21,274 nucleotides of DNA from a virus (IMGVR_UViG_3300025174_000954:1-21274); one strand, 5' to 3'; positions 1,847-19,188 are shown, numbered from the stretch's first letter. A program made the numbers and translations. Notes: a model not told the origin generated them from the letters alone.

Positions 1847-1850
1847 CAGA

Positions 1851-2486: not shown

Positions 2487-2510
2487 TCATCGACGCGCCG
2501 GACGGAGGAG
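2466..2510 (-). promoter_or_regulatory. Hairpin enclosing the portal stop codon
   Basis: In the mRNA sense, CTCCTCCG (2510-2503), a bulged base and CCGG (2501-2498) pair with CCGG (2477-2474) and CGGAGGAG (2473-2466). This gives 12 base pairs around a 20-base loop that contains the TGA and the following GTG. The 3' arm includes GGAGGAG, an SD-like sequence that would be hidden when folded. The structure is visible directly; its effect (readthrough, reinitiation control, or none) is not. Confidence 0.55.
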
Positions 2511-4091
2511 CACTGTCCGTCTCCCTGGTGTCGCTTCATCATCATCATCCTCCACCTGTGAGGGATCGTCTACCCGCTCAGGGTCGTGTTTGATCGCCCC
2601 CCGATCAAGACGCCCCGCGGCCAGGGCATCAGCCATGACGTAGTCATACACCGCTTCGATGGTCTCCTGCAGGAGCTGCTGCCGATCCTCAATCGTCTTC
2701 ACGGCCGGATCGGTCTTGACCAGCGCCGTCGCCCGGGCAGGACCGGTGCTTTCGATGTTGAAATACTCACCGGGCAGGTTCAGGGACGCTGCGACAATGT
2801 TCCCGATCTGTTGCCCAATTCCCGACGCCCCACGCCCGGCTGTCAGCTGTGCCGACGTCGCTTGCAGCTCCACGGCCTCGTTCTCAATCCATGTCCCGCC
2901 GGGTGGGGGCAACTCGGTCAGAGCAGCGTTGCTCAGGAAGGCATCAACATCGGCCTGATCCCCTTTGATCTTGATCTTGAAGACCAAGTTTGCTTCGAGC
3001 ACGGCCTTGATGGTCTGCCCGTTGTAGAAATCATTGAAGCGTTTGATCCACGGCATTGCTGCCAGAAGATCGCTCCGGCCACGTTTCTCCTGGCTCGAGA
3101 CGTTGATCTTCAGATGCAGGATGTTAGTCGGCGGGACTTGCTGGATGATGTACTTCGCCACTGGGATCTGCCCCGACACCCAGAGCTGATAGGGCGTCGG
3201 GTACTGAAAGTGATAGTAGAACACATGTTCGATGTCTTCGGGATCGGTGACAACTTCCCAACAGGTCGACGGATCGAGCACAGTCAGGCGGACGTAGCCC
3301 TTCGCCCGCTCGAAGAAGCGGAGCATCAGCTCTCCCTGCCAGGGCAGGTCCCGCGCCATCAGGCGAATCTTGTCCCGCATCTTGTTCCGGACCCAAAACT
3401 CATCCCACTCGGCCTTCGCCTTGTCGTGCTTGATGTTGAAGTTGACACCACGCCCGAGCACGAACCGTTGCATGATCTTGATCGCCCCGGCCGCCAGGGC
3501 ACTGTGATTCGTCATCTCGAACGCCCGGGCGTGCATGAGCAGGTAATCGTAGATATAGAGCTGCTTGAAGAATGGCCCGGCCATGATCGGGACGAACTCC
3601 GTATCGATCAGACGCGTGGCGTCCTGACTCCCTCCCATCGGGTCGTCACCAGAGAAGTCCAGACCGAACTGCTCCATCATCCGTTTCTGCTTCCCATCCG
3701 CACTCTCGTGAAAGGCTTGCAGCTCGGCCTTGTTCTTGATCGGGATAGGCTTCCACCGGCGACTCTCCTGAATCGGCTGGAGCACAACACCTTCGCACTC
3801 AACAGCGCGGAACGTCTGCTGCCCGGGGATCGTCACTTCAAGCTTCGGATCGTCTGGGTTCGCAGCAATCACGAAGCGCTTGGCATATTCCGGCGCACTG
3901 ACCATGTAATCGGCCGCCCGTGTCCCGGCATCAGGATCGTACTGTACCCTGTTCGCCCAGCGCCCGTAGGGTTTCACCCGGTGCACAATCTCACGTGTAC
4001 TGAGGCGCTCGATCGCCGGGGTGCCGCTGATCGCCTGGCGAGCAGACTCATCGACAAAGTCGCCAAGATCGTCGTCTTTGATTTCGGTCAT
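2487..4091 (-). CDS. Portal protein (main ORF)
   Basis: 534 residues from ATG 4091, with AGGAGG 5-6 bases upstream; a longer frame from 4301 would overlap the terminase. The portal is the dodecameric ring at one head vertex through which DNA enters and leaves. Supporting stretches are FFKQLYIYDYLLMHARAFEM (174-193), MQRFVLGRGVNF (207-218), KRGRSDLLAAMPWIKRFNDF (336-355), NIVAASLNLPGEYFN (431-445) and a long helix with DRQQLLQETIEAVYDYVM (469-486), as in HK97/lambda-type portals. The position directly after the large terminase agrees. The ORF ends in an acidic then basic tail at TGA 2489-2487, and the next ORF continues in exactly the same reading frame, so the portal seems to be split by one stop codon. 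Confidence 0.88.
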   Translation of the reverse strand: MTEIKDDDLGDFVDESARQAISGTPAIERLSTREIVHRVKPYGRWANRVQYDPDAGTRAADYMVSAPEYAKRFVIAANPDDPKLEVTIPGQQTFRAVECEGVVLQPIQESRRWKPIPIKNKAELQAFHESADGKQKRMMEQFGLDFSGDDPMGGSQDATRLIDTEFVPIMAGPFFKQLYIYDYLLMHARAFEMTNHSALAAGAIKIMQRFVLGRGVNFNIKHDKAKAEWDEFWVRNKMRDKIRLMARDLPWQGELMLRFFERAKGYVRLTVLDPSTCWEVVTDPEDIEHVFYYHFQYPTPYQLWVSGQIPVAKYIIQQVPPTNILHLKINVSSQEKRGRSDLLAAMPWIKRFNDFYNGQTIKAVLEANLVFKIKIKGDQADVDAFLSNAALTELPPPGGTWIENEAVELQATSAQLTAGRGASGIGQQIGNIVAASLNLPGEYFNIESTGPARATALVKTDPAVKTIEDRQQLLQETIEAVYDYVMADALAAGRLDRGAIKHDPERVDDPSQVEDDDDEATPGRRTVLLRPARR

Positions 4092-4110
4092 GCGACCTCC
4101 TTCTCTCTGT

Positions 4111-5931
4111 TCAGCGATACCGGGTGCGCACCCAGCCGGCCTGTCCCCCAACCGTGGGACGCCCGCTATGTGGAATCTGTTGTCCAACACCCGCCCGGCC
4201 ACCCCCCCAGCTCTTGCCATCCTCATTCCCGAGACGCTTGATCCCGGCCGGGATGTTCTCGGGCTTCCCGGCCATCGGGCGGAGGGCCTTGCCCGCCCCA
4301 CTGGCCACCCACCAGTACATCAGCAAGCTGTGAAAGTGATCCGGGCTCTTCTTGCCTTCGATATTCCCGGCCGCCGAGGCGTACTCATCCTGTTCATCGG
4401 GGTCGATGATCCGGATGCGCCCGACGGCATCCATCTCGTACTTGACCATCGAGGTCTGGGCCATCAGGGCATCTCGCGTACTGCGCCCGGCCCCATCAGG
4501 ATCATAGAGCTGTCCGAGCGCGATGAACCCTTGCTCGAACGCCCGCCGAAGGATCCACCCCATCTCGGCCTTGAGATTGACGTACTTCGTATCGAGGAGG
4601 TGCTTCCGGGCGCGGCGCTCCCGCTCATCGGCAGTCTTGGCGCGATCGGTCGGCGCCGCCCCGAAGTTGATCGGGATGACCCGCTCCCCCCTGCGCTTGA
4701 GAATATCAACCACCCCGCCACCGACACCGGTGTCGTCGATGACGATCACATCCGCCCCCTGCTGCATGCGAATCCGTTGACAGGCATCCGCCGTCGCATC
4801 TACTGACCGATACCGCGGGTGCCGGGCGCTGCTCCCGATGTTCGCCTCCGTCGCATCAGGGGAGAGCGACTCCGCCGGGGTCCGGGCGATCGTCTCGGCG
4901 TAGGTAATCGTCCCACCGCGACCGCAGAGAATCACCGTGCGGTCGCGGCCATACCGGGCGACGTCGCAACTGACCACCATCAGATCCCCCGGCATCCCGC
5001 TCTCCAGATCTTCAGCGTCAGAGAGCCACCCGAACGGGATCAGGACGTCCCCTTCAACCGATGGGAAATCCCCAATACAGCGGGCGATGTAGACCGGAGA
5101 ATCCACCCCCCAGCGCTCCGCCCCTTCACGGAGGAACTGATCGCGGACGCGGGCCGAGTAGTACGTCCCGTGCAGTGAGTGTGGTGGGGCTTCCGGGCGC
5201 TTGAGCTTCGCCTTCAGCTGAATCGGGTGAATGACGAAGGTCGCCTTCCAGGTCGTCCGGAACTTCGTGAAGACCTTGTAGAACTCCCCGCTCAGGCCCC
5301 CAGGCGTGGAGGCGACGAGCAGCTTGGCCTCTTGCGTCGTCCGCATGCCCTGGACGGAATCCCAAATCGGGTGTTTGATCCCCTTGGCTTCATCGAAGAC
5401 AGCCAGGAGGTGCGGACTGTGATACCCCTCGATGTTCAGGGGTTCACTCGACGCAATCCCGACCGCGAACCACTCGTTGTGATTCGCCTTGTGATAGAGC
5501 CGTGTCGTCACCAGCTCGAACTGCCTGAACAGCCACGCCGCGTCGGGGTTCTGTTTCCCTGAGCGCCACCAGCGGGCGATTTCCGCCCAGAGCACATCGC
5601 GGACCTGCTTGTTGAACGTCGGCGCCGTCGTCGGGACCTTCGGGAACGGCCGCGTCGTCGTGAACCACTCGATGATCCAGGCCAGCAGGGCCGTCTTCCC
5701 CACCCCGTGGCAGGCACGGATCGCGACGCTATCTTCTTCAGTGATGGCATCCATGACATCACACTGCCATGGATCAGGTTGCGCCAGGAGCGCATCGCAA
5801 GTATAATGGACCGGCGACTGCATCCAGTCAACCAGCTGCGCTTCCTGATGCTCGAGTTGGGCGAGCGACGCCTCAACCAACGCCGGATCAGGCGCCTTCT
5901 CGATATACCGGACGCCCGTCTGGTAACGCAT
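4111..5931 (-). CDS. terL: Terminase large subunit
   Basis: 606 residues. This is the DNA-packaging motor: an ATPase that drives DNA into the prohead and a nuclease that cuts the concatemer. ATPase domain: a Q-like region around DPWQCDVM, Walker A ACHGVGKT (73-80), Walker B LLAVFDEAKG (175-184), coupling motif ASTPGG (207-212). RNase H-like nuclease: VSCDVARYGRD (320-330; Asp323), VIVIDDTGVGGG (395-406; Asp399/400), KKSPDHFHSL (527-536; Asp531), giving the three acidic positions expected. Between the first two nuclease motifs is a linker (about 350-378) that looks longer than usual. The C-terminal 55 residues are Gly/Pro/Arg-rich. The length is within the usual 450-650 range. The start shares one base with the preceding stop. 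Confidence 0.95.
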   Translation of the reverse strand: MRYQTGVRYIEKAPDPALVEASLAQLEHQEAQLVDWMQSPVHYTCDALLAQPDPWQCDVMDAITEEDSVAIRACHGVGKTALLAWIIEWFTTTRPFPKVPTTAPTFNKQVRDVLWAEIARWWRSGKQNPDAAWLFRQFELVTTRLYHKANHNEWFAVGIASSEPLNIEGYHSPHLLAVFDEAKGIKHPIWDSVQGMRTTQEAKLLVASTPGGLSGEFYKVFTKFRTTWKATFVIHPIQLKAKLKRPEAPPHSLHGTYYSARVRDQFLREGAERWGVDSPVYIARCIGDFPSVEGDVLIPFGWLSDAEDLESGMPGDLMVVSCDVARYGRDRTVILCGRGGTITYAETIARTPAESLSPDATEANIGSSARHPRYRSVDATADACQRIRMQQGADVIVIDDTGVGGGVVDILKRRGERVIPINFGAAPTDRAKTADERERRARKHLLDTKYVNLKAEMGWILRRAFEQGFIALGQLYDPDGAGRSTRDALMAQTSMVKYEMDAVGRIRIIDPDEQDEYASAAGNIEGKKSPDHFHSLLMYWWVASGAGKALRPMAGKPENIPAGIKRLGNEDGKSWGGGRAGVGQQIPHSGRPTVGGQAGWVRTRYR

Positions 5932-6722
5932 CAGCCCCCAATCCTGGGCATCGGGAGTGGTGCCGATCGCCGCGGGGACGATGCCGAGACGACTGGCCCC
6001 TGAATCAGCTCACCGCCAACAATCGGTTGATCGCTGCGTCCGAGCCGAAGCCGCTTGCCGGTCTCCCACATCAACTCGATCGTCCACTTCCCATCCTCGC
6101 GTCGCACTGGCCAGGCCGCCACGGGGGCGAAGTGCCCGACGGGGGAATCAAGGTCGACATAGATCGGGAATCCGGCATTGCGGCACTGCTCGTAGAAGTA
6201 CATATCCTCGGCACACTCATCGGCCGTGTATCGCCCGAGTGCAAACCAAGGATCAGGAATTTTCTCGAAGACATCGCGCCGGACCAGAATCCCCGCCCCC
6301 GCCGCCGCAAAGACGGGGTAGAGCCCCAGCCGCCCGTCCAGCTCTGACCAGGGAATCGAGATGAACTGTTTCCGCCCGTTCTCGTGCGTCTCGCCCTTGA
6401 AGAGCACCGGGTGGAACGGGGGTTTGGAGAATGAGACCAGGGCGCCGACGACGGGGACGTTCCAGCGCAGGAGCCGGAGGACGAGATCCATGTCGAAGTG
6501 ATGGTCGTCATCCATGAAGAAGAAGTGGGAGACTTCCGGCCCGGCAAGTCGCACGGCGTCGTTCCTGTTCTTCGCTGGGGACGCCGAGGCGATCCGGTAG
6601 ATGCATGTCTTGTCCGGGACGCAGAGCCCTTCCAGGGACGTCTCGAAGAGCAGATACCGCGTCATCCCCCCGCTGGGGATGCAGACCGCCACGGGCTTGT
6701 ACGCACTCTCGACGACTTGCAT
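5931..6722 (-). CDS. GT-A type glycosyltransferase
   Basis: 263 residues; AGGAG lies 5 bases before the ATG, one base after the previous stop. Motifs: VAVCIPSGG (11-19), the motif SASPAKNRNDAVRLA (46-60), a clear metal site HFFFMDDDHHFD (66-77), VVGALVS (91-97), GAGILVRRDVFEKIPDPWF, and DECAEDMYFYEQCRNAGFPI with the Glu-Asp catalytic region. This group of GT-A proteins is common in phage and metagenomic contigs. The C-terminal 45 residues are a Ser/Pro/Arg-rich tail. Its TGA shares its A with the large terminase start (TGATG), so it is translated together with the packaging motor. Confidence 0.83.
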   Translation of the reverse strand: MQVVESAYKPVAVCIPSGGMTRYLLFETSLEGLCVPDKTCIYRIASASPAKNRNDAVRLAGPEVSHFFFMDDDHHFDMDLVLRLLRWNVPVVGALVSFSKPPFHPVLFKGETHENGRKQFISIPWSELDGRLGLYPVFAAAGAGILVRRDVFEKIPDPWFALGRYTADECAEDMYFYEQCRNAGFPIYVDLDSPVGHFAPVAAWPVRREDGKWTIELMWETGKRLRLGRSDQPIVGGELIQGPVVSASSPRRSAPLPMPRIGG

Positions 6723-6723
6723 G

Positions 6724-8076
6724 TCAGCTCCTGTCGGTGCCGCCGACCTGCGGCGTATAGGGGATCTTCGTCAGCAGGAAGCGGATGAAGAGTTCGCTCT
6801 CCGGGTCGCCAAACGTAGCAATGTCCTGTTCGTTCCGTGCGACCAGGTTCGCTGTGATCCCGACGAACCGGCCGCCGTACTTCGACTGGATCTGATTCCA
6901 GTAGAGCGCGGAGCGAGCGACGAAGAGACTCTTGTGTGTCGGATCGTGAATCGCCCCCAGCGCGTGCGCATGGGGGACAATGATCTCGGCCAGGCCACCG
7001 ACCTTGAGCACGCGGTCGATTTCGTTGATGATAAAGATCACGTCCTCGCTGACAAAGTGTTCAAGCACGTTGTCCAGCAGGACGTGATCGAACGTCTCAT
7101 CGTTGAACGGGAGTCCCCGTCGGATATCCCGGACGACATCCACACCGGGCCCGGGCGTCAGATTCAGGTTGAGCCAGCGATCCATCCCTTCACTCGAGCG
7201 TGGCTGATCGCCACAGCCGATATTCAGACAGAACCGATTCCGGAGACTCTGCTGTCCGTACTTGGCCTGGAAGATCTGCCCGTTCAGCTTGTACTGGCGG
7301 TCCCACTCTTGCGACCCGAGCAAGCGCATGTAGCTCGAGCTGTGTGGGAACCCGGCCCGCCCATGCGCGACGATCACGGCCGACGTCGCCCCGCACTTGA
7401 ACCCGGCCGCCTTGACGCGACGGTTGTAATCGTCATCGTCAAACCCGTACCCGACAAACCGTTCGTCGAGTGGGCCGACGCGATTCCAGATCTCACGGGG
7501 AATGCCGACGGCAATGAAGCAGACCGTCCGCGTACACTCGGTAATCCCCCCGACAGGGAGGCGCTCCGCCCGTTGCTCGTCGTTCCCAACCCCGCCAACA
7601 ATGCCACAGGCGAGGAGCCCGAACTTGAGTTCACGAGCAAGATCCATGAGATAGCAGACCCTCGCCTGCCACTCGGGCGTCTGCATCTCCGTATCGTCAT
7701 TGAGGACGAAGAGATCCGCGTCCGGTGGCGCGGCGGCGGCCATGAGGTTGATCGCTCGGGCAAACACGAACGGCTTCGGGATGTCAACGTATGTTACCTG
7801 TGGGAAGTCGATGCGGACGTCAGGCTCCAAGCCGTTATCTCCGACGATGACGCTGGCAAGGGAGCCTGGACTGGACTTCTCCAGACTGGTCAGGCAGGTC
7901 GCCAAAAAGGCCCCCGTACAGCTCGGAATCAGGACCGCCAGGGGCCGGAGAACCCCCGCCTGTGCTCCCTGCTGCCCCCCAGCTGAGACTTTGCCCTCCA
8001 AGGGGTGGGTTTCCCCCTCCACGGGGTCCTGGGATGCCCCTATGACCACTTGCTCTTGCCCGATAATCTGCGTCAT
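6724..8076 (-). CDS. Glycosyltransferase-methyltransferase fusion
   Basis: 450 residues. Residues 1-44 are a Gly/Gln-rich, probably flexible leader. Residues 46-275 are a family 2 glycosyltransferase: LAVLIPSC (46-53), SVIVGDNGL (75-83), metal-binding FVLNDDTEM (123-131), and GPLDERFVGYGFDDDDYNRR (201-220). Residues 280-445 are a class I methyltransferase: CLNIGCGDQP (283-292), FDHVLLDNVLEHF (329-341), VLKVGGLAEIIVPH (356-369). The C-terminal domain resembles the small methyltransferases that act on sugars. One polypeptide may thus attach and methylate a sugar in sequence. The glycosyltransferase half is paralogous to the stand-alone enzyme at 13072-12308. ATG 8076 has GGAG 11 bases upstream, and the 36-base gap before it contains nothing else. 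Confidence 0.87.
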   Translation of the reverse strand: MTQIIGQEQVVIGASQDPVEGETHPLEGKVSAGGQQGAQAGVLRPLAVLIPSCTGAFLATCLTSLEKSSPGSLASVIVGDNGLEPDVRIDFPQVTYVDIPKPFVFARAINLMAAAAPPDADLFVLNDDTEMQTPEWQARVCYLMDLARELKFGLLACGIVGGVGNDEQRAERLPVGGITECTRTVCFIAVGIPREIWNRVGPLDERFVGYGFDDDDYNRRVKAAGFKCGATSAVIVAHGRAGFPHSSSYMRLLGSQEWDRQYKLNGQIFQAKYGQQSLRNRFCLNIGCGDQPRSSEGMDRWLNLNLTPGPGVDVVRDIRRGLPFNDETFDHVLLDNVLEHFVSEDVIFIINEIDRVLKVGGLAEIIVPHAHALGAIHDPTHKSLFVARSALYWNQIQSKYGGRFVGITANLVARNEQDIATFGDPESELFIRFLLTKIPYTPQVGGTDRS

Positions 8077-8112
8077 GCGATCTCGCTCTCCAGTCTGTTC
8101 AGGTGTACCATG

Positions 8113-8316
8113 TTAACATTGCGCCCATGCCAGCGCTCCACCGAATGCGACACCGAGCAGGAACCACGGCCAGCGCCGTGGTGTCTCCAGTGTCAGACGA
8201 ATCCAGAGCCGGTTCGCGAGATACCGCGCCCGCTCGGTGGGCGTAAGCAGCATGCTCTCACTCTCCTGAAGCGCCGCGTGCATCACCATCATGATCTGTT
8301 CATGTGTCACTGGCAT
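8113..8316 (-). CDS. Small tail-anchored membrane protein
   Basis: 67 residues from ATG 8316, chosen because AGGAG and GGGGA lie directly before it. The N-terminal 45 residues are soluble and helical (HEQIMMVMHAALQESE, TERARYLANRLWIRL). The last 20 form one transmembrane segment (WPWFLLGVAFGGALAWAQC) ending in a terminal Cys. As with the other tail-anchored protein in this block, it sits between two glycosyltransferase genes, which would fit a membrane tether for cytoplasmic enzymes. A holin-like role is possible but unsupported. Confidence 0.65.
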   Translation of the reverse strand: MPVTHEQIMMVMHAALQESESMLLTPTERARYLANRLWIRLTLETPRRWPWFLLGVAFGGALAWAQC

Positions 8317-8321
8317 TCCCC

Positions 8322-9269
8322 TTACTCCTGATCCTCCCATGGGACGAGCACAACCGGCCCGGGGGCGTGTTGATTGGGCTGCCCGATGATGTGCCGGTAC
8401 TCGCCTTCGAATGTATTGCCAGGATCAATGCGGTTGTAAAACTCGAACTTCCGCTGTCGATCCTCGCCATCCCAGTAGCCGAAGTGAATGAGCGGCTGCG
8501 CGTAGATCGCCGCCACTGGGTCCACCCCATTCGGGCGGAAGTTCTCACGCGGGATGCTCCCGCAATGGAACCCACCCTTGCTCCCTTCCCACGAGAACCG
8601 CATGATGTGGAGCTGCTCGCTCGACACACGAGCGATCGAGAACAGGCGTGGGAACCGGAGGCGTGGGAGCGCATCATCCGCCAGCCCATAGATGCCGTCC
8701 ATCCGGATCTGCCCGGGGGCGTCCCAGAGATAGACGAACGGGATGTGCATGATGTCGACCTGTCGTTCCAGGGCGGCAATCGCCTGGCCGAACTGCCGCA
8801 TGAAGCGCCGGGATGGCAGCTCATCCCCGTCCAGGCAGAGCATGTGCAAGAACGGAACGTTGGCCTTGCAGTACTCCCAGAGGAAGTTCTTGTCCCTGAT
8901 CTCACTCACCGCCTGCGTCGGGCGCGCCGTCGCCGGGCGGAATGGGGACTGGAGGACATGGAGCACCCGCGCCGCGGGCGTCAACTCGACATCACGGACG
9001 TTCGCCGCCGTCTGTGTCACATCCCAGACGTAGTAGCCAGTGGTGCTGAGGGCGTCACGGGTCCCTTCGTATGCCTCCTGCGCCAGAGCGTCGTCCTGAT
9101 AGACCGCGCGCAGGCACTCCAGGATCGTCTCATCGTCGCTCCCGTCGTCGAGCACTACGATCGACCCGACGAGGTGGAACGCCCGTTCGAGAATCGAGCG
9201 AATCCAGCGCGCCTCGTTCCGGATGCGCATCATGCAGGCGACCTGCCCCCGGGCGTACGTCCCCATCAC
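8322..9269 (-). CDS. Glycosyltransferase family 2
   Basis: 315 residues. Sequence features of a GT-A enzyme: CMMRIRNEARWIRSILE (12-28), the nucleotide-binding IVVLDDGSDDET (37-48), and the metal-binding MLCLDGDELPS (143-153). The NEA...DDGSxDxT and LDxDE patterns match family 2 members such as lipopolysaccharide core-type glucosyltransferases. An extra segment (about 50-115) lies between the first and second motifs. The C-terminal third has FHCGSIPRENFRPNG and RKFEFYNRIDPGNTFEG. It is not close to the other glycosyltransferases here. No membrane segment is visible. The next gene begins 5 bases after its TAA and uses AGGAG/GGGGA spanning the stop. Confidence 0.82.
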   Translation of the reverse strand: MMGTYARGQVACMMRIRNEARWIRSILERAFHLVGSIVVLDDGSDDETILECLRAVYQDDALAQEAYEGTRDALSTTGYYVWDVTQTAANVRDVELTPAARVLHVLQSPFRPATARPTQAVSEIRDKNFLWEYCKANVPFLHMLCLDGDELPSRRFMRQFGQAIAALERQVDIMHIPFVYLWDAPGQIRMDGIYGLADDALPRLRFPRLFSIARVSSEQLHIMRFSWEGSKGGFHCGSIPRENFRPNGVDPVAAIYAQPLIHFGYWDGEDRQRKFEFYNRIDPGNTFEGEYRHIIGQPNQHAPGPVVLVPWEDQE

Positions 9270-9595
9270 GCGGGCGCGCCTTCCGCCCCGAACTGGGCAT
9301 CCTGGTCGTCTGCGACATCGGGAAGCATGACGTCATCGGACTGCAGCGGGCCCTCTCCCGACTCCCCCATCTCTGGTATCTGATCCAGAACCTCGGCAGG
9401 CCCACCGTCCGGGGGCGCTGTAGGGGCTGCCGCTGGCTCCTGCTCGCTGAGCAGGGCGAGATCCCCCTGATACCACGGGCCGGTCTCGACGCCATCGATG
9501 AGGACAGTGTAGTAGTCCGGCCCACCACGCTCGGCCAGCACGCGCCCGACCTGCCCGTTCGATACCTGCACCAGTTGATTGCGTTCGAGCTTCAT
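9266..9595 (-). CDS. Small SH3-like N-terminus with acidic tail, unknown
   Basis: 109 residues; GGAGG lies about 7 bases before the ATG. Residues 1-50 form a compact beta domain (NQLVQVSNGQVGRVLAER, YYTVLIDG, WYQGDLALL) resembling an SH3/KOW-type barrel that reads or binds a partner. The remaining 60 residues are Pro/Glu/Asp-rich and probably disordered. The stop overlaps the next glycosyltransferase start (ATGA). It could be an adaptor linking a glycosyltransferase to its target or a small head protein; neither is proven. Confidence 0.6.
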   Translation of the reverse strand: MKLERNQLVQVSNGQVGRVLAERGGPDYYTVLIDGVETGPWYQGDLALLSEQEPAAAPTAPPDGGPAEVLDQIPEMGESGEGPLQSDDVMLPDVADDQDAQFGAEGAPA

Positions 9596-9605
9596 GTGTC
9601 GCCTC

Positions 9606-10337
9606 CTATCGCGTCTGTGTAATGTGGAAATAGTCGACGTCTATGCCGTCAGTCACGCCCGTCGTGTTAGAACTCCCCGCAACCGGCTTGAGGGCGGCCG
9701 ACGGAATGTTCGTCACGATACTTCCCTTCGAGACATCATCGATGAAGAACTCAACGCTGGTTCCATCTCCCGTCACCACTGCCTTGAGCTCGTGGAAGAC
9801 GCCGTTCGCAGCCGCGGTCGCCATGCTCAGTATCGACTCGCTGTTGCTATTCCGGCAGACGGCAGTGATGTCGCCGCCCACCGTCGCCTTCCAAAAGATC
9901 CCATCAGCTGGCGTGACACCACCACCGGCGGCGACGTGGCAACCAGCCATCCGTGTCGCCGCCCCGGTGCCGAACTGCGCATACCGGACACGAATTGTAG
10001 GGTTCTTTCCCGGCGACACCCAGCCAGCTCCATTATTAGAGCCGCCCATCAGGTGATTCAAGTACGGCGCCGTACTCGACGTCGGGATCAGCCTCACCAC
10101 GCCACCGACGTTCGAGCCCGCGAGCGGGTTATCCGTTGTCACGCGCCAGGCGTGCTGATACGACCTGAGCGCGTCAACTGCCGCGGCAGCCGTAAAGCCG
10201 TCAGAGACGAAATCCTCGTAGAACTGCAGCGTCGTCGACGGGTCCACGACGCCAGACGCTCCGGCAGCGCCGGCAGCGCCGGTAGCGCCAGCTGGTCCGG
10301 CCGGACCGCGAAGATTTGTAAACGAGTAGAGTGGCAT
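9606..10337 (-). CDS. Collagen-like surface protein with lectin-like C-terminus
   Basis: 243 residues, with GAGGAGG before the ATG. A ten-residue N-terminus (MPLYSFTNLR) is followed by a run of seven Gly-X-Y starts (11-29), i.e. a short collagen-like trimerising rod. From about residue 37 the sequence is a beta-sandwich of the LamG/concanavalin-like type (FYEDFVSDGF; AGCHVAAGGG; IFWKATVGGD; HELKAVVTGDGTSVEFFIDD, then VDYFHIT near the end). In phages this architecture is typical of head or tail fibres and other surface adhesins, often binding carbohydrate. Surrounded by glycosyltransferases, it may be a glycosylated virion protein or may recognise a glycan. It is short for a tail fibre, so a head or neck fibre is equally possible. 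Confidence 0.7.
   Translation of the reverse strand: MPLYSFTNLRGPAGPAGATGAAGAAGASGVVDPSTTLQFYEDFVSDGFTAAAAVDALRSYQHAWRVTTDNPLAGSNVGGVVRLIPTSSTAPYLNHLMGGSNNGAGWVSPGKNPTIRVRYAQFGTGAATRMAGCHVAAGGGVTPADGIFWKATVGGDITAVCRNSNSESILSMATAAANGVFHELKAVVTGDGTSVEFFIDDVSKGSIVTNIPSAALKPVAGSSNTTGVTDGIDVDYFHITQTR
10251..10307 (-). repeat. Collagen-like Gly-X-Y repeat tract
   Basis: Seven consecutive Gly-starting triplets (GPA GPA GAT GAA GAA GAS G) within the surface protein gene. On the plus strand this shows as the repeated ccggcagcg/ccggtagcg motif. Tracts of this kind are prone to slippage and expansion. Confidence 0.8.
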
Positions 10338-10351
10338 CGTCGCATCCTCCT

Positions 10352-10729
10352 CTAGATCGCCCCGGCCGTGACGTACGGGATCACCGTCGTCGAGCCGGCG
10401 GCGACTTTCCCACGGATGCGGAACGTGCGGTGTGAGTCAATCCCAACCTGGAACGAGAGAATCGCCCCAGCCCCAAGTGTCGCGAACGTCGTACTATCGA
10501 CAGTCTCGTAATCAGCGTCCGCGGATTCCCCCGGTGCCTTCGGCGAGACTTCGACCAGGCAGGCGCTCAGGGCCGTCGCCCCCGTGTTCTGTAACGTGAA
10601 CGTCTTCCGGTCGAATCGAAGCAGGTCGATCGCCTGCACGATCACGGTGTAGTCCATCCCGACCGTCACCGGGACAGTGGGCTGGCTTGGATGTTGACTG
10701 AGAATATCACGCTGCACGATCTGCGCCAT
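10352..10729 (-). CDS. Beta-rich virion-type protein, unknown
   Basis: 125 residues with a strong AGGAGG 7 bases before the ATG, suggesting high expression. It is nearly all beta strand (VPVTVGMDYTVIVQAIDLLR, KTFTLQNTG, SFQVGIDSHRTFRIRGKV, TTVIPYVTAGAI), the profile of a small immunoglobulin-like or jelly-roll protein. Such proteins in phage late operons are often capsid decoration, head-fibre or neck proteins. It is followed at 14 bases by the collagen-like gene, with the same strong ribosome-binding site, so the two may be assembled together. Identification as structural is inference from fold type and context. Confidence 0.6.
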   Translation of the reverse strand: MAQIVQRDILSQHPSQPTVPVTVGMDYTVIVQAIDLLRFDRKTFTLQNTGATALSACLVEVSPKAPGESADADYETVDSTTFATLGAGAILSFQVGIDSHRTFRIRGKVAAGSTTVIPYVTAGAI

Positions 10730-10743
10730 GTGCGACCTCCTCT

Positions 10744-11682
10744 CTAAACGATGCGATGCCGGTAGAACCCCTTGAGCCGCGGCACCCGGATCAGGTCATA
10801 CTCGGTCCCGTTGATCGTGATGACCTCTGGGGTCGCGTTCAGCTCCGGGACGAACTGCTTGAAGTACTGCTCCATGTGGAGCGCCGAGGGTGGCCAGTCC
10901 TCGTGCCGCAGGACGTTCTCACTGTGATACGTGACCCGCGGGCCGGCGAAGTATTTCGTCCACTTGTTCACCCAGTTGACCACGCCGGCGCTGATGCGCT
11001 CCAGGCTCGCCGGGTCGTTGGTCGCCGTTGCATGATGAATGACCTGCACACCAGGATCGGCCCCGAGCTTGTACCCGGCCAGGCGGAGACGTGTCTGGAA
11101 GTCGACTTCGTCTTGATGCCCGAGCGTTTCATCGAAGTACTGATCTCGCCCGAATGGCCATGGTCTGAGTACGGCCTCGGCGATGCCCTGCACGGGAAGC
11201 GTCGCCCGCATGGCAACGCGATTGACCATCCAACAGAACCCGACACCCCAGAGAATCTCAACATAGGGCCCACGGCCAATCGGGGCCGCCCCACCATTCG
11301 GGAACACCATGCCCAGCTCGTGATAGCGGTCGAGCAAGCCAGCCAGGGCTTCATCCCACCCCCACGTCAGTGGGATCGCATCGTCGTCGATATAGGCAAC
11401 GTATTCTGTCTCCGCCCATGTGAGAATGACGTTCACAGCCCCCGCGTAGCCGACATTGTGTGGCATGTGCTCGATGTGTATACGGTGTTTGTGTTCGTAC
11501 TGTACCCGGGCGCAGAGCGTCTCAATAGCCTGCTGCTTGACCTTGTCTGGGTGTTCGTTGATGACGATCAGGCACCGCCAGTCCGTCGCCATGGTTGTCG
11601 CCAGGGCGTTGACCACCTGCTCAAGGCGTTCCGGTTTCCCGTAGGCGGCGATTCCGATATCAAGGCGTCGGCTATTCGTCAT
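10744..11682 (-). CDS. Glycosyltransferase family 2
   Basis: 312 residues; GAGGA lies upstream and the ATG overlaps the previous stop. GT-A fold signs: LDIGIAAYGKPERLEQVV (7-24), LIVINEH (38-44), HNVGYAGAVN (75-84), the metal-binding AYIDDDAIP (96-104), an acceptor region with GVGFCWMVNRVAM, and LGHQDEVDFQTRLRLAGYKL, containing the acidic residue of the ED motif. The last 70 residues (WVNKWTKYF onward) are an extra C-terminal segment not needed for the fold. It is related to, but clearly distinct from, the other glycosyltransferases here, so it probably uses a different sugar or acceptor. No membrane segment is seen. Confidence 0.85.
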   Translation of the reverse strand: MTNSRRLDIGIAAYGKPERLEQVVNALATTMATDWRCLIVINEHPDKVKQQAIETLCARVQYEHKHRIHIEHMPHNVGYAGAVNVILTWAETEYVAYIDDDAIPLTWGWDEALAGLLDRYHELGMVFPNGGAAPIGRGPYVEILWGVGFCWMVNRVAMRATLPVQGIAEAVLRPWPFGRDQYFDETLGHQDEVDFQTRLRLAGYKLGADPGVQVIHHATATNDPASLERISAGVVNWVNKWTKYFAGPRVTYHSENVLRHEDWPPSALHMEQYFKQFVPELNATPEVITINGTEYDLIRVPRLKGFYRHRIV

Positions 11683-11909
11683 GTCACGTCCTCACTTTCT
11701 GCCCTGTCGTTGACTGCGACGTACTCGACCGTTTTCACGGCCTGCACATCCACCCGAAGCCTCGGCGTTCGTGGCAACTCGAAGGGCTCCCCATAGACGA
11801 GTCTGATCAGTTCAAGTCCCCGGAGAAAGTTATCAAGATCCCGCCGCTGGCGCGGAGAGAGTCCGTCCTGGTCCGGCGTCGTCTCAAGCTGGGGGAGCAG
11901 TCTGGCCAA
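11679..11909 (-). CDS. Small hypothetical protein with TTG start
   Basis: 76 residues. No ATG or GTG is available in frame; TTG 11909 is preceded by GGAG at 6 bases, so I take it as the start. It overlaps the previous gene by 26 bases, and its TGA overlaps the next ATG (ATGA). The N-terminal half is charged and helical (SPRQRRDLDNFLRGLELIR). The C-terminal half has short beta strands (RLRVDVQAVKTVEYVAVND) and an acidic end. No family is recognised. The rare start codon with a preceding overlap suggests low-level coupled translation. Confidence 0.55.
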   Translation of the reverse strand: MARLLPQLETTPDQDGLSPRQRRDLDNFLRGLELIRLVYGEPFELPRTPRLRVDVQAVKTVEYVAVNDRAESEDVT

Positions 11910-12111
11910 GCCGGGCTCCGCAGACGCGGACGGTCATAACGACCTGGTTCACGGTCCGCTGGATACTCTCGATCAGGGGGGCCTCACAGCCAATGCCACG
12001 CAGCTCCTTCGCCAGTGCGATCGTCACGGTCTCAGGGGCACATCCCTGAAGCTGTGCCTGCACGGCCGTGTGAATGATATCGAGAAGCGTGAGCGCGCCA
12101 TCCGTACTCAT
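11884..12111 (-). CDS. Small helical hypothetical protein
   Basis: 75 residues from ATG 12111, which shares one base with the previous stop. The protein is predicted helical throughout (LTLLDIIHTAVQAQL, VTIALAKELRGIG, LIESIQRTVNQVVM) with three Cys scattered (GCAPE, GCEAP, RVCG). I recognise no domain. The 3' end overlaps the next gene by 26 bases. Together with its neighbours it forms a group of three tiny genes between two glycosyltransferases. Confidence 0.55.
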   Translation of the reverse strand: MSTDGALTLLDIIHTAVQAQLQGCAPETVTIALAKELRGIGCEAPLIESIQRTVNQVVMTVRVCGARLGQTAPPA

Positions 12112-12305
12112 CAGCTGACCCGTGACAGGACATACACGACGACGGCCAACGTCCCCACGACGCCGAGGAGGAGCCACACCAGATGCGACCCTGAAATCAC
12201 GGTGAGCTGCCCACCAGGGAAGACGAGGTGGAGCGATGTCCGTTCCTGCCGACGGCCATCACTCTCATGATCAATCTTCCGGCGGTCGCGGCCAATGTAG
12301 AACAT
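12111..12305 (-). CDS. Small C-terminally anchored membrane protein
   Basis: 64 residues from ATG 12305, two bases after the glycosyltransferase stop. The first 38 residues are polar and basic (IGRDRRKIDHESDGRRQER). A single transmembrane segment follows near the C-terminus (LVWLLLGVVGTLAVVVYVL), leaving only RVS outside. The topology is tail-anchored with a cytoplasmic domain. It might be holin-like, but one membrane span with a long cytoplasmic N-terminus is not a standard holin, and its place among glycan genes would also suit a membrane tether. Its TGA shares its A with the next ATG (TGATG). Confidence 0.65.
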   Translation of the reverse strand: MFYIGRDRRKIDHESDGRRQERTSLHLVFPGGQLTVISGSHLVWLLLGVVGTLAVVVYVLSRVS

Positions 12306-12307
12306 GC

Positions 12308-13072
12308 TCACGGCTCCTCTCGGCAGTGACAGGCGAATCGTTTGAAGTGGACATCGGTCTCCGGGCGCTCGACCACCCACGGTTTGGGCGGGACGCGCCC
12401 AGTCCACTTCTGGTGGAAGATCTCAAAGTTGACATCGAGCTTCTCCAGCATGGCGGCCCAGGACCCGAGTCGCTTCACCCAGCCAGTGGCCTGGGCGTCG
12501 GTATGCAACACCACATCCCCAGCGACGCCGAGCAGATACCCAGCATGCAGGAGGCGCAGGCCGTAGTCGAAGTCGTCAAAGCCGTAGCCGACGAGCGTCT
12601 CATCCCAGGGGCCGATCTCCCGAAGAATCCGACGTGGAATCGCAATGCTACTCCCCGTCGCCACCATCGACATCTCGATGGGGTGCAGTGGGGGCGGCAT
12701 GCGCCCGTAGACACTCGGCGTCGTCGTCTCCGCAAAGCTGAGCAGGCCGTAGGCCATCGGCCAGTCGTCGAAGAGTTGCATGATTCGCTGCAGCCACTGA
12801 TCCGTCAGGATCTCCGAATCATCGCCAATCACGACGACATCATCATCTGGGACGGCCGCAAACCCGATGTTGAATGCCTGCGCCGCCACAAACGGATCGC
12901 CAGGGACCGGGAGGTAACGGGCCTGCGGCCAGTGCCGATGGAGTTCTCCGGTGAGCCCGTTATCAAGCACGATCACGCTCGCCACCGACCCGGGCTCCCG
13001 GGCCTCCATACAGGTGAACAGGGCAGTGAGCCGCTCATCCTGGAACGACGGAATCAGAACGCTGACGCTCAT
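12308..13072 (-). CDS. Glycosyltransferase family 2
   Basis: 254 residues from ATG 13072. A longer in-frame version from 13165 would overlap the previous gene and is rejected. GT-A fold: SVSVLIPSFQ (2-11), SVIVLDNGL (32-40), FNIGFAAV (67-74), the metal-binding VVIGDDSEI (80-88), GSSIAIP as an acceptor-loop-like segment, and GPWDETLVGYGFDDFDYGLR, the conserved acidic ED-type region of the family. It is clearly paralogous to the N-terminal half of the glycosyltransferase-methyltransferase fusion 4.3 kb downstream: both have PGSxASVIVxDNGL and VGYGFDDxDY. No membrane anchor is visible, so it is probably a cytoplasmic enzyme adding one sugar to a protein or glycan acceptor. Confidence 0.85.
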   Translation of the reverse strand: MSVSVLIPSFQDERLTALFTCMEAREPGSVASVIVLDNGLTGELHRHWPQARYLPVPGDPFVAAQAFNIGFAAVPDDDVVVIGDDSEILTDQWLQRIMQLFDDWPMAYGLLSFAETTTPSVYGRMPPPLHPIEMSMVATGSSIAIPRRILREIGPWDETLVGYGFDDFDYGLRLLHAGYLLGVAGDVVLHTDAQATGWVKRLGSWAAMLEKLDVNFEIFHQKWTGRVPPKPWVVERPETDVHFKRFACHCREEP

Positions 13073-13146
13073 CCCCGGCGCCCCAGGGCCCAGAGCCGGA
13101 AGTACCACCCGACGACACGGGCGACGACGCAGCGCCAACAGCTCAT
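13069..13146 (-). CDS. 25-codon coupling mini-ORF
   Basis: ATG 13146 overlaps the stop of the reductase-methyltransferase gene (ATGA), and its own TGA overlaps the next glycosyltransferase start in the same way. The peptide is short, basic and aromatic (MSCWRCVVARVVGWYFRLW, then ALGRRG), with CxxC spacing and amphipathic character. Without it, the glycosyltransferase would start 70 bases after the upstream stop with a poor ribosome-binding site, so its likely job is to carry ribosomes across. It might also be a real membrane-active micropeptide. Confidence 0.45.
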   Translation of the reverse strand: MSCWRCVVARVVGWYFRLWALGRRG

Positions 13147-14915
13147 GGCTTCCGCCACCACCCACCCTCAGCCCGTTCTAGACCAGCTTGGAGCAGGAGC
13201 GAATCCCAGAGCGCCCGCCCGTCGGCTGCCGGATCAGGGTCAGCGTCGGCGTACTTGTTGTTGCGCGTCAGGTGCTGCGGGATCGATCCCCCATGCTCAT
13301 CGTCACCCATCGCGAAGGCGTTCTGCGCGAGAAACAGGCCACCGGGGTGGAGCACCCTGGCCACCCACTGCACCCACTCGTCGACGTTCGGGAGGTGCTC
13401 GAAAAAGTCGAGCGCAACCACAGCGGCGACGTGGCCTTTGGCAACGTGATCGGGGACGGGCCCTATGGCCTCCCACATCGGCGGGTGCCAATCATCAGAG
13501 AGCACCATCAGTGGCTCGGCCTGTCCACGCCGGGCGAACCGGAACGCGGCAAACCTGGCTGTCACCGAGTCGAGCAGATCATGATAGATCGGCGTCAGCC
13601 CCGCCGCCTGGCAGGCCAGCGTCAGGTCCCCGATCCCATCCCCCAAGCAGAGAACGCTATTCCGCCCCACCATCCGCTCCGGCTCCGCCGCAAGCCGGGC
13701 AGCAATCCCCTGGCACATCCCGGCGTAGTTGAACCCGGCGTCCAGGTGATACGCCGTCAGCTCCCAGACGTAGCGGTCGGTGTCCCGGTACCAGGCGAGC
13801 AGGGCATCGTCGTGATAGGGACCCGGCAGGGCGCGCCGGAAATCCTCCGTCACGCGCTGATGAAAATACCCAAACCCACGAAGCAGCTCGGCGTAGACCT
13901 CCCCTTCAGGACGCCCGAAGAACATCGCCAGCTCGAGGGCCCGATCCCTGGGACTCTGTGGATCCATCCGCCACCTCCAGTCGTTGACGGCCTCACCGAG
14001 AGCATCGTCGAACAGCTCGAACGCAATGGCGTCAGGGCCGAACGTCGTCTCCCATGGGCGCGGGGCCAGGGTTGAAAACTCAGCTTCATGGAGCGAGAGC
14101 ACGATCTGCGCCCCCCGCTCCTGCGAGAGCACCTTGGCCAGGCGCTCATGCACACGGGTGGCCAGCATCAGCCGACTGACGCGGAGGGGAAGCCCGATGT
14201 GGAGCACGTGGCGGCGGGTGAGATACCGCTCCAGCACGGGGGGGAGCGGATCGAGCGTGGCGAGCAGCTCCCAGAACGCCCGCGCTGCGTCTGCGGCGAA
14301 GCAGGGGGAGAACCACCGGTCAACGACCTCGTGTTGGAGTGCCCCATACCGCCGACACCAGGACTCCAGGGGGTTCTCACGCCCCACGGACGGGAACGGG
14401 CGGATGCCGAGGACGAACGTCAGACGCGTGATGATCGTCCGCTCGAACTGCGAGACGAGCAGCTCCGCCTGGAGCTTCTGTCGCCCGTAGGCGTTCACCG
14501 GTGGGTCGGCGAGATCCAGGAGCTGCCATGGGGTCAGCGCCCGGTACGGAGCGTGGCGGCCACCGAAGACCCCCTGCGTACTGACGTGCACGTACCAGGC
14601 GCTGTTCACCTCCGCCCACTCGGCCAGGACGCGGGGCAGCTCCACGTTGATGAACTGATAGGTGGACGGGTCCTGCTCCACCACGTCCGGGCGGTTCTCC
14701 CCCGCGAGGTTGAGAATCACGCTCGGGGTCGCGGCATCCAGGAGACTCCGCACTGCGATGGGATCGTCCAGCGGCTGGCACTCCGCCCACGGGAGACGCT
14801 GATGGCCGGTCATGTACAGGCAAGCGCGGTCCGGGGGTTCAAATCGACGGAGCGTCTGCCCGACGATCCCACTCGCGCCGAGAATCAAGACCGGATGCCG
14901 CGGGTCAGTGGACAT
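13143..14915 (-). CDS. Bifunctional RmlD-like sugar reductase and SAM methyltransferase
   Basis: 590 residues. The N-terminal 300 residues are an extended short-chain dehydrogenase of the RmlD (dTDP-4-dehydrorhamnose reductase) type: NAD(P)-binding GASGIVG (13-19), NLAGENRPD (69-77), VHVSTQGVFGG (109-119) with the Ser/Thr, and AYGRQKLQAE (142-151) with catalytic Tyr143 and Lys147. The C-terminal part (about 395-590) is a class I methyltransferase: VLCLGDGIGDLTL (421-433), VVALDFFEHLPN (499-510), VLHPGGLFL (521-529). The domains are joined by a helical stretch. This suggests reduction of a 4-keto-deoxysugar nucleotide and methylation of the sugar or of a downstream glycan. The rest of the dTDP-rhamnose pathway (RmlA, B, C) is not in the window, so the precursor would come from the host or another region. 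Its stop overlaps a 25-codon mini-ORF. Confidence 0.8.
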   Translation of the reverse strand: MSTDPRHPVLILGASGIVGQTLRRFEPPDRACLYMTGHQRLPWAECQPLDDPIAVRSLLDAATPSVILNLAGENRPDVVEQDPSTYQFINVELPRVLAEWAEVNSAWYVHVSTQGVFGGRHAPYRALTPWQLLDLADPPVNAYGRQKLQAELLVSQFERTIITRLTFVLGIRPFPSVGRENPLESWCRRYGALQHEVVDRWFSPCFAADAARAFWELLATLDPLPPVLERYLTRRHVLHIGLPLRVSRLMLATRVHERLAKVLSQERGAQIVLSLHEAEFSTLAPRPWETTFGPDAIAFELFDDALGEAVNDWRWRMDPQSPRDRALELAMFFGRPEGEVYAELLRGFGYFHQRVTEDFRRALPGPYHDDALLAWYRDTDRYVWELTAYHLDAGFNYAGMCQGIAARLAAEPERMVGRNSVLCLGDGIGDLTLACQAAGLTPIYHDLLDSVTARFAAFRFARRGQAEPLMVLSDDWHPPMWEAIGPVPDHVAKGHVAAVVALDFFEHLPNVDEWVQWVARVLHPGGLFLAQNAFAMGDDEHGGSIPQHLTRNNKYADADPDPAADGRALWDSLLLQAGLERAEGGWWRKP

Positions 14916-14918
14916 GGC

Positions 14919-15341
14919 CTAGAACTGATCTGCCTGGACAATGAGATCCGTCGTTGTCCCACACCCCGCACCATAGTTGCCCAAGATTGTCGCAGTTGCC
15001 CCGACAGAGAGCGTCAGTGGCGGATTCCACTTGTACTGTCCAACGGGATACGTAATGTTGCTGTACGTCTGCCCTGGTGTTGCAAACACAAGTGCCGTCC
15101 CATCAATGACGCGCACTGTTGGGACGACAACCGAATTCGCATTGTAACAGACGACGGTAACATTGTAGATCCGAACACGTTGTCCGCTCACGCCAGGAAT
15201 CGTCACCGTCGCAGTGTTCGGATATGTCGCCGAGACATATTGGTTAACTGGGGTGTACTGTCCAGTTGGCCCATCCGCCAGGACCGGGCGAACGGCAAAC
15301 AGAAGGAGAGTCGCAAGGACCCACACTGCTAGCTTTCTCAT
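14919..15341 (-). CDS. Secreted beta-rich protein with Sec signal peptide
   Basis: 140 residues from ATG 15341; GAGGAG lies about 9 bases upstream, overlapping the previous stop. Residues 1-22 are a classical signal peptide: MRK, a hydrophobic core (LAVWVLATLLLFAV), and a likely cleavage after VLA before DG. The mature part is almost all beta strand (TATVTIPGVSGQRVRIYNVT, PTVRVIDGTALVF, PPLTLSVGATATIL) rich in Thr, Val, Tyr and Asn. It has two Cys that could form a disulfide outside the cytoplasm. No enzymatic motif is visible. A signal peptide is odd among packaging genes; it suggests a protein exported by the infected cell or lysogen, perhaps coating the surface. It lies between glycan genes and could be an acceptor, which is speculation. 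Confidence 0.75.
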   Translation of the reverse strand: MRKLAVWVLATLLLFAVRPVLADGPTGQYTPVNQYVSATYPNTATVTIPGVSGQRVRIYNVTVVCYNANSVVVPTVRVIDGTALVFATPGQTYSNITYPVGQYKWNPPLTLSVGATATILGNYGAGCGTTTDLIVQADQF

Positions 15342-15354
15342 TGAGCATCTCCTC

Positions 15355-15960
15355 TTACGTCGTAAGGAACGGCGTGCCAGCCCACTTCCGTTCCAGCTTC
15401 TCTTTGTACAGTCGATGTTCATTCACTGGCCATCCATTCCGACTCGACATACATGGGTTCGGATGGTCCGCCCATCCAGGGACGACGAGAACGGGCAGCC
15501 CTGCCGCAGCCGCTTGCAGGCAAAAATCTTCGACGCAGCAGTGGAACCAATCAAATGTCTTCTCGTCGAAACTGACCTGGACACGAGCGGCAGTCGCACG
15601 GCTCACGAAGACGCTGCACGAATCAAGCGTCGAGACCGGCGTTGGCGCTGTGACATCACGCGACCAAATGCCGCCGGGGTCACCTCGCCCAACTACCCCT
15701 GCGATCGCCCCACCAGTGGCAGCGGCAACCAGTGCCGTGCAGACAGTTCCGGAGAGCATGAGATCAGCGTGCACCAGTCCAAGGACATCACCCTGCGCCG
15801 CGGCGAGATAGTGATTGCCAATCCGCCCCAGGCCACCCCACTGGGCACTGAGATTCGCAACAAAGATCAGCTCATCAGCCATGGATGGATCAATCCCCCG
15901 CCCCGCGACGCAACACTCATCCCGGGAACGCCCGAGCACGACAAGCGTCAGGGTGCTCAT
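15355..15960 (-). CDS. GT-A type glycosyltransferase (family 2-like)
   Basis: 201 residues from ATG 15960, selected for the ATGA overlap with the methyltransferase. It begins with the first beta strand of a GT-A fold (TLTLVVLGRSRD). The metal-binding position is LVHADLML (63-70), an HxD variant of the DxD motif. Later features are STLDSCSVFVSR (110-121) and FHCCVEDFCLQAAAAG (139-154), where the Glu-Asp pair fits the catalytic-base region of family 2 enzymes. It is compact and has no membrane segment, so it probably acts in the cytoplasm on a nucleotide sugar. Its TAA is followed 11 bases later by a gene for a secreted protein. The sugar and acceptor are unknown. Confidence 0.75.
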   Translation of the reverse strand: MSTLTLVVLGRSRDECCVAGRGIDPSMADELIFVANLSAQWGGLGRIGNHYLAAAQGDVLGLVHADLMLSGTVCTALVAAATGGAIAGVVGRGDPGGIWSRDVTAPTPVSTLDSCSVFVSRATAARVQVSFDEKTFDWFHCCVEDFCLQAAAAGLPVLVVPGWADHPNPCMSSRNGWPVNEHRLYKEKLERKWAGTPFLTT

Positions 15961-16502
15961 CCCATCATCGCACGGCACTCAAAATAGAGCACCGTCTCGG
16001 TGTGATACTGCGTCCTGGTTGGTAGACTCTCCTCCTTCACAAACAGCTCATGACAGTGCGCAAGCAACTCATCCTTATTGAAACTCAGATCGGGAATCCC
16101 GGCCCAGTTCGTCGCGATCTGACACGTTGGCCCACTGCTCCACGGTGTGAAAATCACCAGAACAAGTCGATGGCGTATACTTGCCAGTGCATTGGCAAGG
16201 ATGCCCTGCCAGTTATGATTGTGCTCTAGCACATGACGTAGAAGGATCCCATCCACGTCACTACGATATGCCTGTAGATCACGCATGACGCCAATACTGC
16301 CATCAACGACCTGATAGCGGGCATGCGTGAAGAATTGCCCAGCCCACCCTGCACCACCACCCCAGTCTTCGACAGACCAATCGTCAACATCAAGCCATGC
16401 AGCGGCTAGTTGATAGGTTGTGCTATCAACATCAGGCGGCAACAGCGAACTCACACCAGGTGGGTACAGCCCTGCCCACAGCCCGCGCATGTCCTTAGCC
16501 AT
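15957..16502 (-). CDS. Class I SAM-dependent methyltransferase
   Basis: 181 residues from ATG 16502 (an in-frame GTG directly before it is possible). It transfers a methyl group from S-adenosylmethionine. Motif I appears as DWGGGAGW (residues 46-53), the acidic strand end as VVDGS (about 65-69), and the post-motif helix as ILLRHVLEH (86-94), a pattern typical of small metabolic and sugar methyltransferases. It is shorter than most (200-250 residues) and lacks a visible substrate domain. It overlaps the next glycosyltransferase start by ATGA, so the pair is co-translated, which suggests a sugar or glycan hydroxyl as substrate. DNA or protein methylation is less likely because no target-recognition region or DPPY-type motif is seen. 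Confidence 0.8.
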   Translation of the reverse strand: MAKDMRGLWAGLYPPGVSSLLPPDVDSTTYQLAAAWLDVDDWSVEDWGGGAGWAGQFFTHARYQVVDGSIGVMRDLQAYRSDVDGILLRHVLEHNHNWQGILANALASIRHRLVLVIFTPWSSGPTCQIATNWAGIPDLSFNKDELLAHCHELFVKEESLPTRTQYHTETVLYFECRAMMG

Positions 16503-16543
16503 CACCGCCCGCTGCCAAGGACAACAAGCGTCACCGTTGTCAT
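16502..16543 (-). CDS. 13-codon mini-ORF resembling a glycosyltransferase start
   Basis: ATG 16543 overlaps the upstream stop (ATGA), and its TGA shares its A with the ATG of the following methyltransferase gene (TGATG). The 13-residue peptide MTTVTLVVLGSGR resembles the first residues of the glycosyltransferase two genes later (MSTLTLVVLGRSR), and ten bases (TGACGCTTGT) are identical in the two genes. It is therefore either a decayed copy of a glycosyltransferase 5' end or a leader kept for translational coupling. I cannot show that it is translated. Confidence 0.4.
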   Translation of the reverse strand: MTTVTLVVLGSGR

Positions 16544-18771: not shown

Positions 18772-19188
18772 TTAGAGAATACCCTTCTTGTACTGCTTCA
18801 GCGTGGACTTCAAGGAGTTAACCCCTGACCCAGTGGCGACTTCATCAGACCGTCCGCCAGAGCGGTCAACGACCGTCCAGGCATTGTTCCCATGGTCAAT
18901 GACGATGCTATGATTCGGCGCCTTCCCACTCTGGGCGCGTCCCCCGTAATACTCCTGTCCACCAGAGAACGACCCGGCCGACCGATAGCCGGCAGCGCGA
19001 AGATGTGAGACCATTTGCCGACTTGCCGCTGTGGGGGTATTCGGATCACCACCGGCATCGCCGCCATCAGGCCCTTTCCCGCCACCCTTCCGGGGCCCAG
19101 AGCCTGGCCCCCCTTCGACCCCTGTAACGTGTCGACCTTCAACGAGGCGACGCTTGATCACCCATGTTAGGGCCTCACTCGTTTTCAT
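18772..19188 (-). CDS. Small phage protein sharing the GGPGSGP N-terminal module
   Basis: 138 residues; AAGGAAG lies 6 bases before the ATG, 11 bases after the previous stop. Residues 1-33 repeat the module of the preceding gene (RRLVEGRHV, EGGPGSGP) with an extra two residues before EGG. Residues 34-55 are Gly/Asp/Pro-rich linker. Residues 56-138 look like a small alpha/beta domain (HLRAAGYRSAGSF, HSIVIDHGNNAWTVVDRSGG) that I do not recognise. The pair arose by duplication of the 5' part or by exchange of C-terminal domains. Base composition of both genes looks less GC-rich than the terminase and portal genes, hinting at separate acquisition. Confidence 0.75.
   Translation of the reverse strand: MKTSEALTWVIKRRLVEGRHVTGVEGGPGSGPRKGGGKGPDGGDAGGDPNTPTAASRQMVSHLRAAGYRSAGSFSGGQEYYGGRAQSGKAPNHSIVIDHGNNAWTVVDRSGGRSDEVATGSGVNSLKSTLKQYKKGIL

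Follow-up and report, generated by a model that had tools for sequence, protein, structure and literature searches.

The window analysed here is a 21,274-base virus record from IMG/VR. Its genes all lie on the minus strand, in the order small-terminase-like gene (TerS), small genes, an enzyme island (16505-5931), large terminase (TerL), portal, a gene at 1851-2486, and a MuF gene that continues off the end (Table 1). The island is tightly packed between TerS and TerL, with intergenic junctions of -100 to +36 bp, and its products hold ten enzyme domains: six GT-A glycosyltransferases, three methyltransferases of class I and a single RmlD-type reductase. A sequence-only reading had proposed these ten domains and a close gene chain running up to TerL. 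Both were recovered: the domains lie where that reading had placed them, in most cases with Pfam matches and homologues, and TerL borders the island directly.

Table 1. Island genes, bordering genes and candidate acceptors in the window.
Feature	Coordinates	Strand	Supporting evidence
TerS, small-terminase-like gene, upstream border of the island region	19496-20305	-	phrog_4102, E 6.5e-5; kept in both syntenic relatives
MT182, putative class I methyltransferase	15957-16505	-	Methyltransf_23, E 0.024 (sub-threshold), and motifs only
GT207, GT-A family 2-like glycosyltransferase	15355-15978	-	PF00535, E 0.045; homologues down to 4e-32 in other phage loci
Small protein, hydrophobic signal-peptide-like N-terminus (candidate acceptor, from 15341)	14919-15422	-	hydropathy peak 2.21
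SDR::MTx fusion, RmlD-type reductase and class I methyltransferase, cassette hallmark	13143-14915	-	RmlD_sub_bind, 1.5e-24; Methyltransf_23, 3.4e-5
GT285, GT-A glycosyltransferase, GTA2 type	12308-13165	-	Glyco_tranf_2_3, 1.9e-6; aligns with GTA2 family
GT312, GT-A glycosyltransferase, conserved partner of SDR::MTx	10744-11682	-	PF00535, 5.7e-12; 13-sequence alignment, 38-55% identity; GT-A model
Small protein, candidate acceptor	10352-10729	-	no Pfam, PHROG or locus match
Protein with short collagen-like GPAGPAG stretch, candidate acceptor	9606-10337	-	Collagen, E 0.014
GT315, divergent GT-A glycosyltransferase	8322-9269	-	no Pfam match; 36-38% identity to five locus homologues, DD and DGDE invariant
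GTA2::MTc fusion, N-terminal GT-A domain and C-terminal Methyltransf_11 domain	6724-8076	-	Methyltransf_11, 2.6e-8
GT263, GT-A-like glycosyltransferase	5931-6722	-	PF00535, 0.009; same-slot relatives at 1e-76 and 4e-83
TerL, large terminase, downstream border	4111-5931	-	phrog_2, 7.1e-28
Portal protein (longest ORF; true start probably further in)	2487-4301	-	phrog_10963, 2.9e-21

Pfam alone is weak for GT207, GT263 and MT182 and gives no match at all for GT315. Homologues lend further support to GT315, the GTA2 domains, GT263, GT312 and GT207, and no homologue of MT182 was found in the fetched loci. The catalytic motifs of the glycosyltransferase domains are intact, as expected of enzymes in phage virion protein glycosylation; the GT-A half of GTA2::MTc, for example, carries the motifs NDD and YGFDDDDY and is 34-38% identical to its homologues.

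Between the enzymes lie small proteins, three of which (9606-10337, 10352-10729 and 14919-15341) had been put forward as glycan acceptors. This proposal found no backing, as none of the three has a detectable homologue in any fetched locus, syntenic ones included; the protein at 9606-10337 likewise gave no useful PDB match. Of two proteins described as tail-anchored, the one at 12111-12407 indeed has a clear C-terminal transmembrane stretch, whereas the one at 8113-8340 falls below the hydropathy cut-off used. Hydropathy revealed no protein with multiple transmembrane segments in the island, and the enzymes look soluble.

Two further features of the window lie outside the island. The MuF-like minor head protein (2-1873, minus strand; PF04233, 2.2e-5), which runs off the window end, has a C-terminal NUDIX hydrolase domain (PF00293, 1.2e-15) and is possibly a head-borne enzyme. 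In addition, two adjoining small proteins (18772-19188 and 19200-19499, minus strand) have a similar N-terminus with a GGPGSGP motif, and a larger protein of G013, one of the closest relatives, begins with a related GGPGSG stretch.

Closest relatives and the conserved core

The closest relatives of the window are two IMG/VR records, G013 and G014 (75,470 and 97,311 bp), with TerL proteins 66% identical to that of the window. Both keep its gene order: TerS, small genes, SDR::MTx, GT312, GT315 (59-61% identical to the window copy), small genes, GTA2::MTc, GT263, TerL and portal. Neither record yielded GT207, MT182, a separate gene for GT285 or any of the suggested surface proteins. Thus, the ten domains co-occur in these relatives in part: five proteins form a core and the rest are variable. 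Conservation of the core order at this distance rules out a set of chance open reading frames, and the even GC content along the window (0.58-0.67) makes a recent foreign insertion unlikely.

G013 and G014 also encode a TS-family protein whose best match is CMP 5-hydroxymethylase (E 1e-25, versus 1e-12 for thymidylate synthase). This protein (L160:2680-3630, plus strand, with its homologue in G014) carries Asp at the base-discriminating position; we take Asp here, in place of the Asn of thymidylate synthase, to mark the dCMP-hydroxymethylase type. With this match and this residue, hydroxymethylcytosine DNA appears plausible in the lineage, as judged from sequence. G014 further contains a thymidylate-kinase-like gene and, close to it, a 388-residue protein that looks GT-B-like by eye (L168:1388-2554, minus strand) and gave no database match.

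The SDR::MTx fusion and its partner enzymes

In a 14-sequence alignment of SDR::MTx the active-site residues are invariant (Ser and YxxxK in the SDR half), and the MTx half retains the motif LGDGxGD. The AlphaFold model (pLDDT 85.5) gives the SDR half an RmlD fold, with a target-normalised TM-score of about 0.83-0.84 against RmlD structures. Fold and catalytic residues are thus those of RmlD, but the equivalog score, at 82.9 bits, falls short of the 224 bits that NCBIfam sets for rmlD, which leaves the exact substrate uncertain. The MTx half weakly resembles UbiG-type O-methyltransferases. Large phages encode SDR and MTx in two adjoining genes, after which GT312, MTc and, in L227, a GT17-family enzyme often come next; the window protein is therefore a fusion of two enzymes that also occur side by side, and we regard it as a candidate new sugar-tailoring enzyme.

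An RmlA-type nucleotidylyltransferase (PF00483, NTP_transferase), which a complete virus-encoded dTDP-rhamnose pathway would require, was found in none of the 25 module records tested. The activated precursor should therefore come from the host. The GT-A model of GT312 lies near TarS/TarP, SpsA and polypeptide GalNAc-transferases, which is compatible with a protein or polymer acceptor.

A conserved cassette in uncultured phages

Scans of IMG/VR from GT315, GTA2 and SDR::MTx recovered more than 200 loci, several of them sharing one record, and at least 49 distinct records bearing MTx; because the collection scans were seeded by short patterns, these counts are lower bounds. SDR::MTx and GT312 form a conserved pair, usually accompanied by GT315, a GTA2-type glycosyltransferase and the methyltransferase MTc, and where a locus has both, MTx almost always precedes GT312 on the same strand. 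The usual longer order is MTc-GTA2-SDR::MTx-GT312-GT315, from which the window departs by carrying its GTA2::MTc fusion at the end of the cassette.

Outside uncultured viruses the family is scarce. Queries with MTx and GT312 had no match in 50,697 GenBank phage records, and the SDR::MTx of the window retrieved only RmlD-like reductases from GenBank phages; GT263 and GTMT450 queries of the same kind returned no or few relatives. Among 84,980 prokaryote genomes, a pattern-seeded scan gave a single MTx-family match, on an Acidobacteria MAG contig (L174). A bacterial origin was set aside in this case, as an integrase gene adjoins the cassette and the contig is likely a prophage, which hints at Acidobacteria as one group of hosts.

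Linkage to head and packaging genes

Head and tail genes were located by locus-derived profiles, partly verified with PHROGs. These replaced phrog_2 and phrog_21, which on their own gave few TerL and portal matches near the glycosyltransferase loci, many of these phages relying on terminases or portals of other families. Of the 49 distinct MTx records, 24 had head or tail genes in their fetched flanks; among the 25 that carry the fused form, 20 did. The cassette occupies at least four slots: between TerS and TerL in the window clade; between TerL and portal in L119 and L225 (with one flank visible in L113, L116, L131, L194 and L195); between capsid and adaptor in L188 and L140; and between adaptor or head closure and tail genes in L031 and L178. 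Except for the TerL of L089, the structural genes share the strand of the cassette. Such linkage to virion structural genes supports, but does not prove, membership among virion glycosylation systems.

In the MTx tree, the window groups with G013 and G014 (100/97), adjoining a large-phage clade whose modules have no recognised head or packaging gene in their vicinity; in L206 a virion structural protein is about 8 kb away. Slot labels on the tree require more changes than one origin each, with several deep forks poorly resolved. Within one TerL lineage, every record reaching far enough downstream shows the beginning of the cassette. An empty-site comparison there found no close relative without the cassette, as records lacking it end soon after TerL, with the exception of the distant L248 (34% identity).

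Discussion

A multi-enzyme glycan cassette recurs in the head and packaging modules of unrelated phages, at different slots, which favours the virion as its target. The earlier suggestion of a coordinated methylated-deoxysugar pathway tied to late genes is supported. We give about an even chance to the reading that the island serves to build, late in infection and in the cytoplasm, an O-methylated 6-deoxysugar glycan on a virion protein, from a host dTDP-sugar precursor. The operon would be expressed late, along with the packaging genes. A host RmlA/B/C-type pathway would supply dTDP-4-keto-6-deoxyhexose, which the RmlD half of the 13143-14915 protein would reduce and the fused MTx half would O-methylate at a hydroxyl. 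GT312 would then transfer the methylated 6-deoxysugar; GT315, the GTA2-type enzymes and GT263 may build the remainder of a short glycan, with MTc and MT182 perhaps methylating other positions. Nucleotide sugars would feed a stepwise cytoplasmic assembly directly on at least one head or tail protein, without a lipid carrier or flippase. In a broader form, the SDR::MTx and GT312 pair would define a virus-specific operon, widespread in uncultured phages and placed several times in the head and packaging operons of unrelated tailed phages, that would coat capsid or tail proteins with a defined methylated-deoxysugar oligosaccharide. We put this forward tentatively, as a possibility a little short of even.

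Other targets must be weighed against the virion. The enzymes might remodel glycans of the infected cell, be it LPS, capsule or teichoic acid, for superinfection exclusion or receptor masking; phage glycosyltransferase and epimerase clusters of jumbo phages and cyanophages have been read in this way (PMC7824862), the predicted fold of GT312 is like that of TarS/TarP, which glycosylate wall teichoic acid, and the module was not seen beside structural genes in large phages. We nevertheless consider this rather unlikely, since several independent head and packaging slots would not be expected for a surface function, and the GtrA flippase (PF04138), which acts with bactoprenol-linked membrane glycosyltransferases in GtrABC-type O-antigen (serotype) conversion, is absent from the 25 records tested, as are multi-transmembrane proteins from the island. 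It is the head-gene linkage, the lack of a flippase and the soluble-looking enzymes together that favour a virion protein.

The glycan could instead be placed on hydroxymethylated cytosine of phage DNA, shortly before or during packaging. The hydroxymethylase-like protein of G013 and G014, with its Asp for Asn, and the thymidylate-kinase-like gene of G014 would fit this idea, and multi-sugar DNA glycans made by phage glycosyltransferases are known (Pyle, 2024, as cited in PMC12619734). Late head-gene linkage is a poor fit, however, and PF00303 is absent from 23 of 25 module records, the TS-family gene being confined to G013 and G014 (the window is a fragment, too short to show a hydroxymethylase). 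Tet_JBP matches are weak, sub-threshold and limited to three large records. Together with the separate GT-B-like gene that G014 has near its nucleotide genes, the general absence of PF00303 makes DNA a less likely target of the island, and we judge this explanation improbable. Combinations of SDR, methyltransferase and glycosyltransferase enzymes also occur in antibiotic deoxysugar pathways, which raises the thought that the product is a free glycosylated metabolite and that no polymer is decorated. Secondary-metabolite clusters have been proposed for cyanophages (PMC7824862), but neither an aglycone synthase nor an exporter was recognised among the island genes, and the linkage to head genes would be left unexplained; a small-molecule product seems very improbable.

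Glycosylation of virion proteins remains our preferred reading. To our knowledge, few phages, namely mycobacteriophages, have been shown to carry glycosylated virions, and the trait is usually deduced from the presence of one or two glycosyltransferase genes. The conserved cassette, with its several enzymes and a hallmark protein specific to viruses, would offer a searchable marker for virion glycosylation in metagenomes. It also predicts a concrete chemistry, an O-methylated 6-deoxysugar, and makes the reasons for which environmental phages might coat themselves testable, be it stability, adsorption or escape from recognition.

Other fetched phage loci also hold glycan genes. A ten-gene block lies upstream of a head-tail adaptor (L008:1972-7363, plus strand), with GT-A, GT-B, TOD1/MUCI70 and DUF2334 proteins. 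In another phage, methyltransferase and glycosyltransferase-like genes and a protein that looks radical-SAM-like by eye precede a portal-like gene (L011:1390-6689, plus strand). A DegT-like sugar aminotransferase, again by eye, sits among glycosyltransferase and MTc genes close to tail genes (L047:2402-3529, plus strand), which suggests an amino-sugar version of such an island.

Comparison with known systems

The sequence-only reading had put the island forward as a candidate for an undescribed system. This needs qualifying, as virion glycosylation by phage enzymes and phage polysaccharide clusters are already known; what is new is the conserved cassette, of which we found no description in the mainly open-access literature searched. 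In podovirus ctKR88 (MW202524, Manatee Spring), a glycosyltransferase and methyltransferase block that includes an MTc relative lies directly downstream of the major capsid protein, and no match to SDR::MTx, GT312 or GT315 was found there. RmlD itself (dTDP-4-dehydrorhamnose reductase) has its fold and catalytic motif in common with the SDR half, whereas SDR::MTx is only about 20% identical to it, carries the fused MTx and scores below the rmlD cut-off. The RmlD-like nucleotide-sugar epimerases of coliphages (Phapecoctavirus, Justusliebigvirus) are 24-31% identical over the SDR part, but lack the MTx half and come with no GT312 match.

The polysaccharide clusters of jumbo phages and cyanophages (PMC7824862) are alike in combining several glycosyltransferases with NAD-dependent epimerase/dehydratase genes. 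Those clusters may also hold sugar isomerases, kinases and nucleotidyltransferases, and their proposed target is the outer polysaccharide of the host; the cassette, in contrast, is without RmlA-type enzymes and in many records is linked to head genes. A further likeness in kind is to mycobacteriophages, in which capsid and tail proteins are modified by phage-encoded glycosyltransferases, sometimes with a methyltransferase alongside (Freeman et al., 2023, Cell Host Microbe; as cited in PMC12619734 and PMC13313380). According to these citing papers, however, mycobacteriophages have few glycosyltransferase genes, whereas the island unites six glycosyltransferase domains, three methyltransferase domains and an RmlD-type reductase in one head module.
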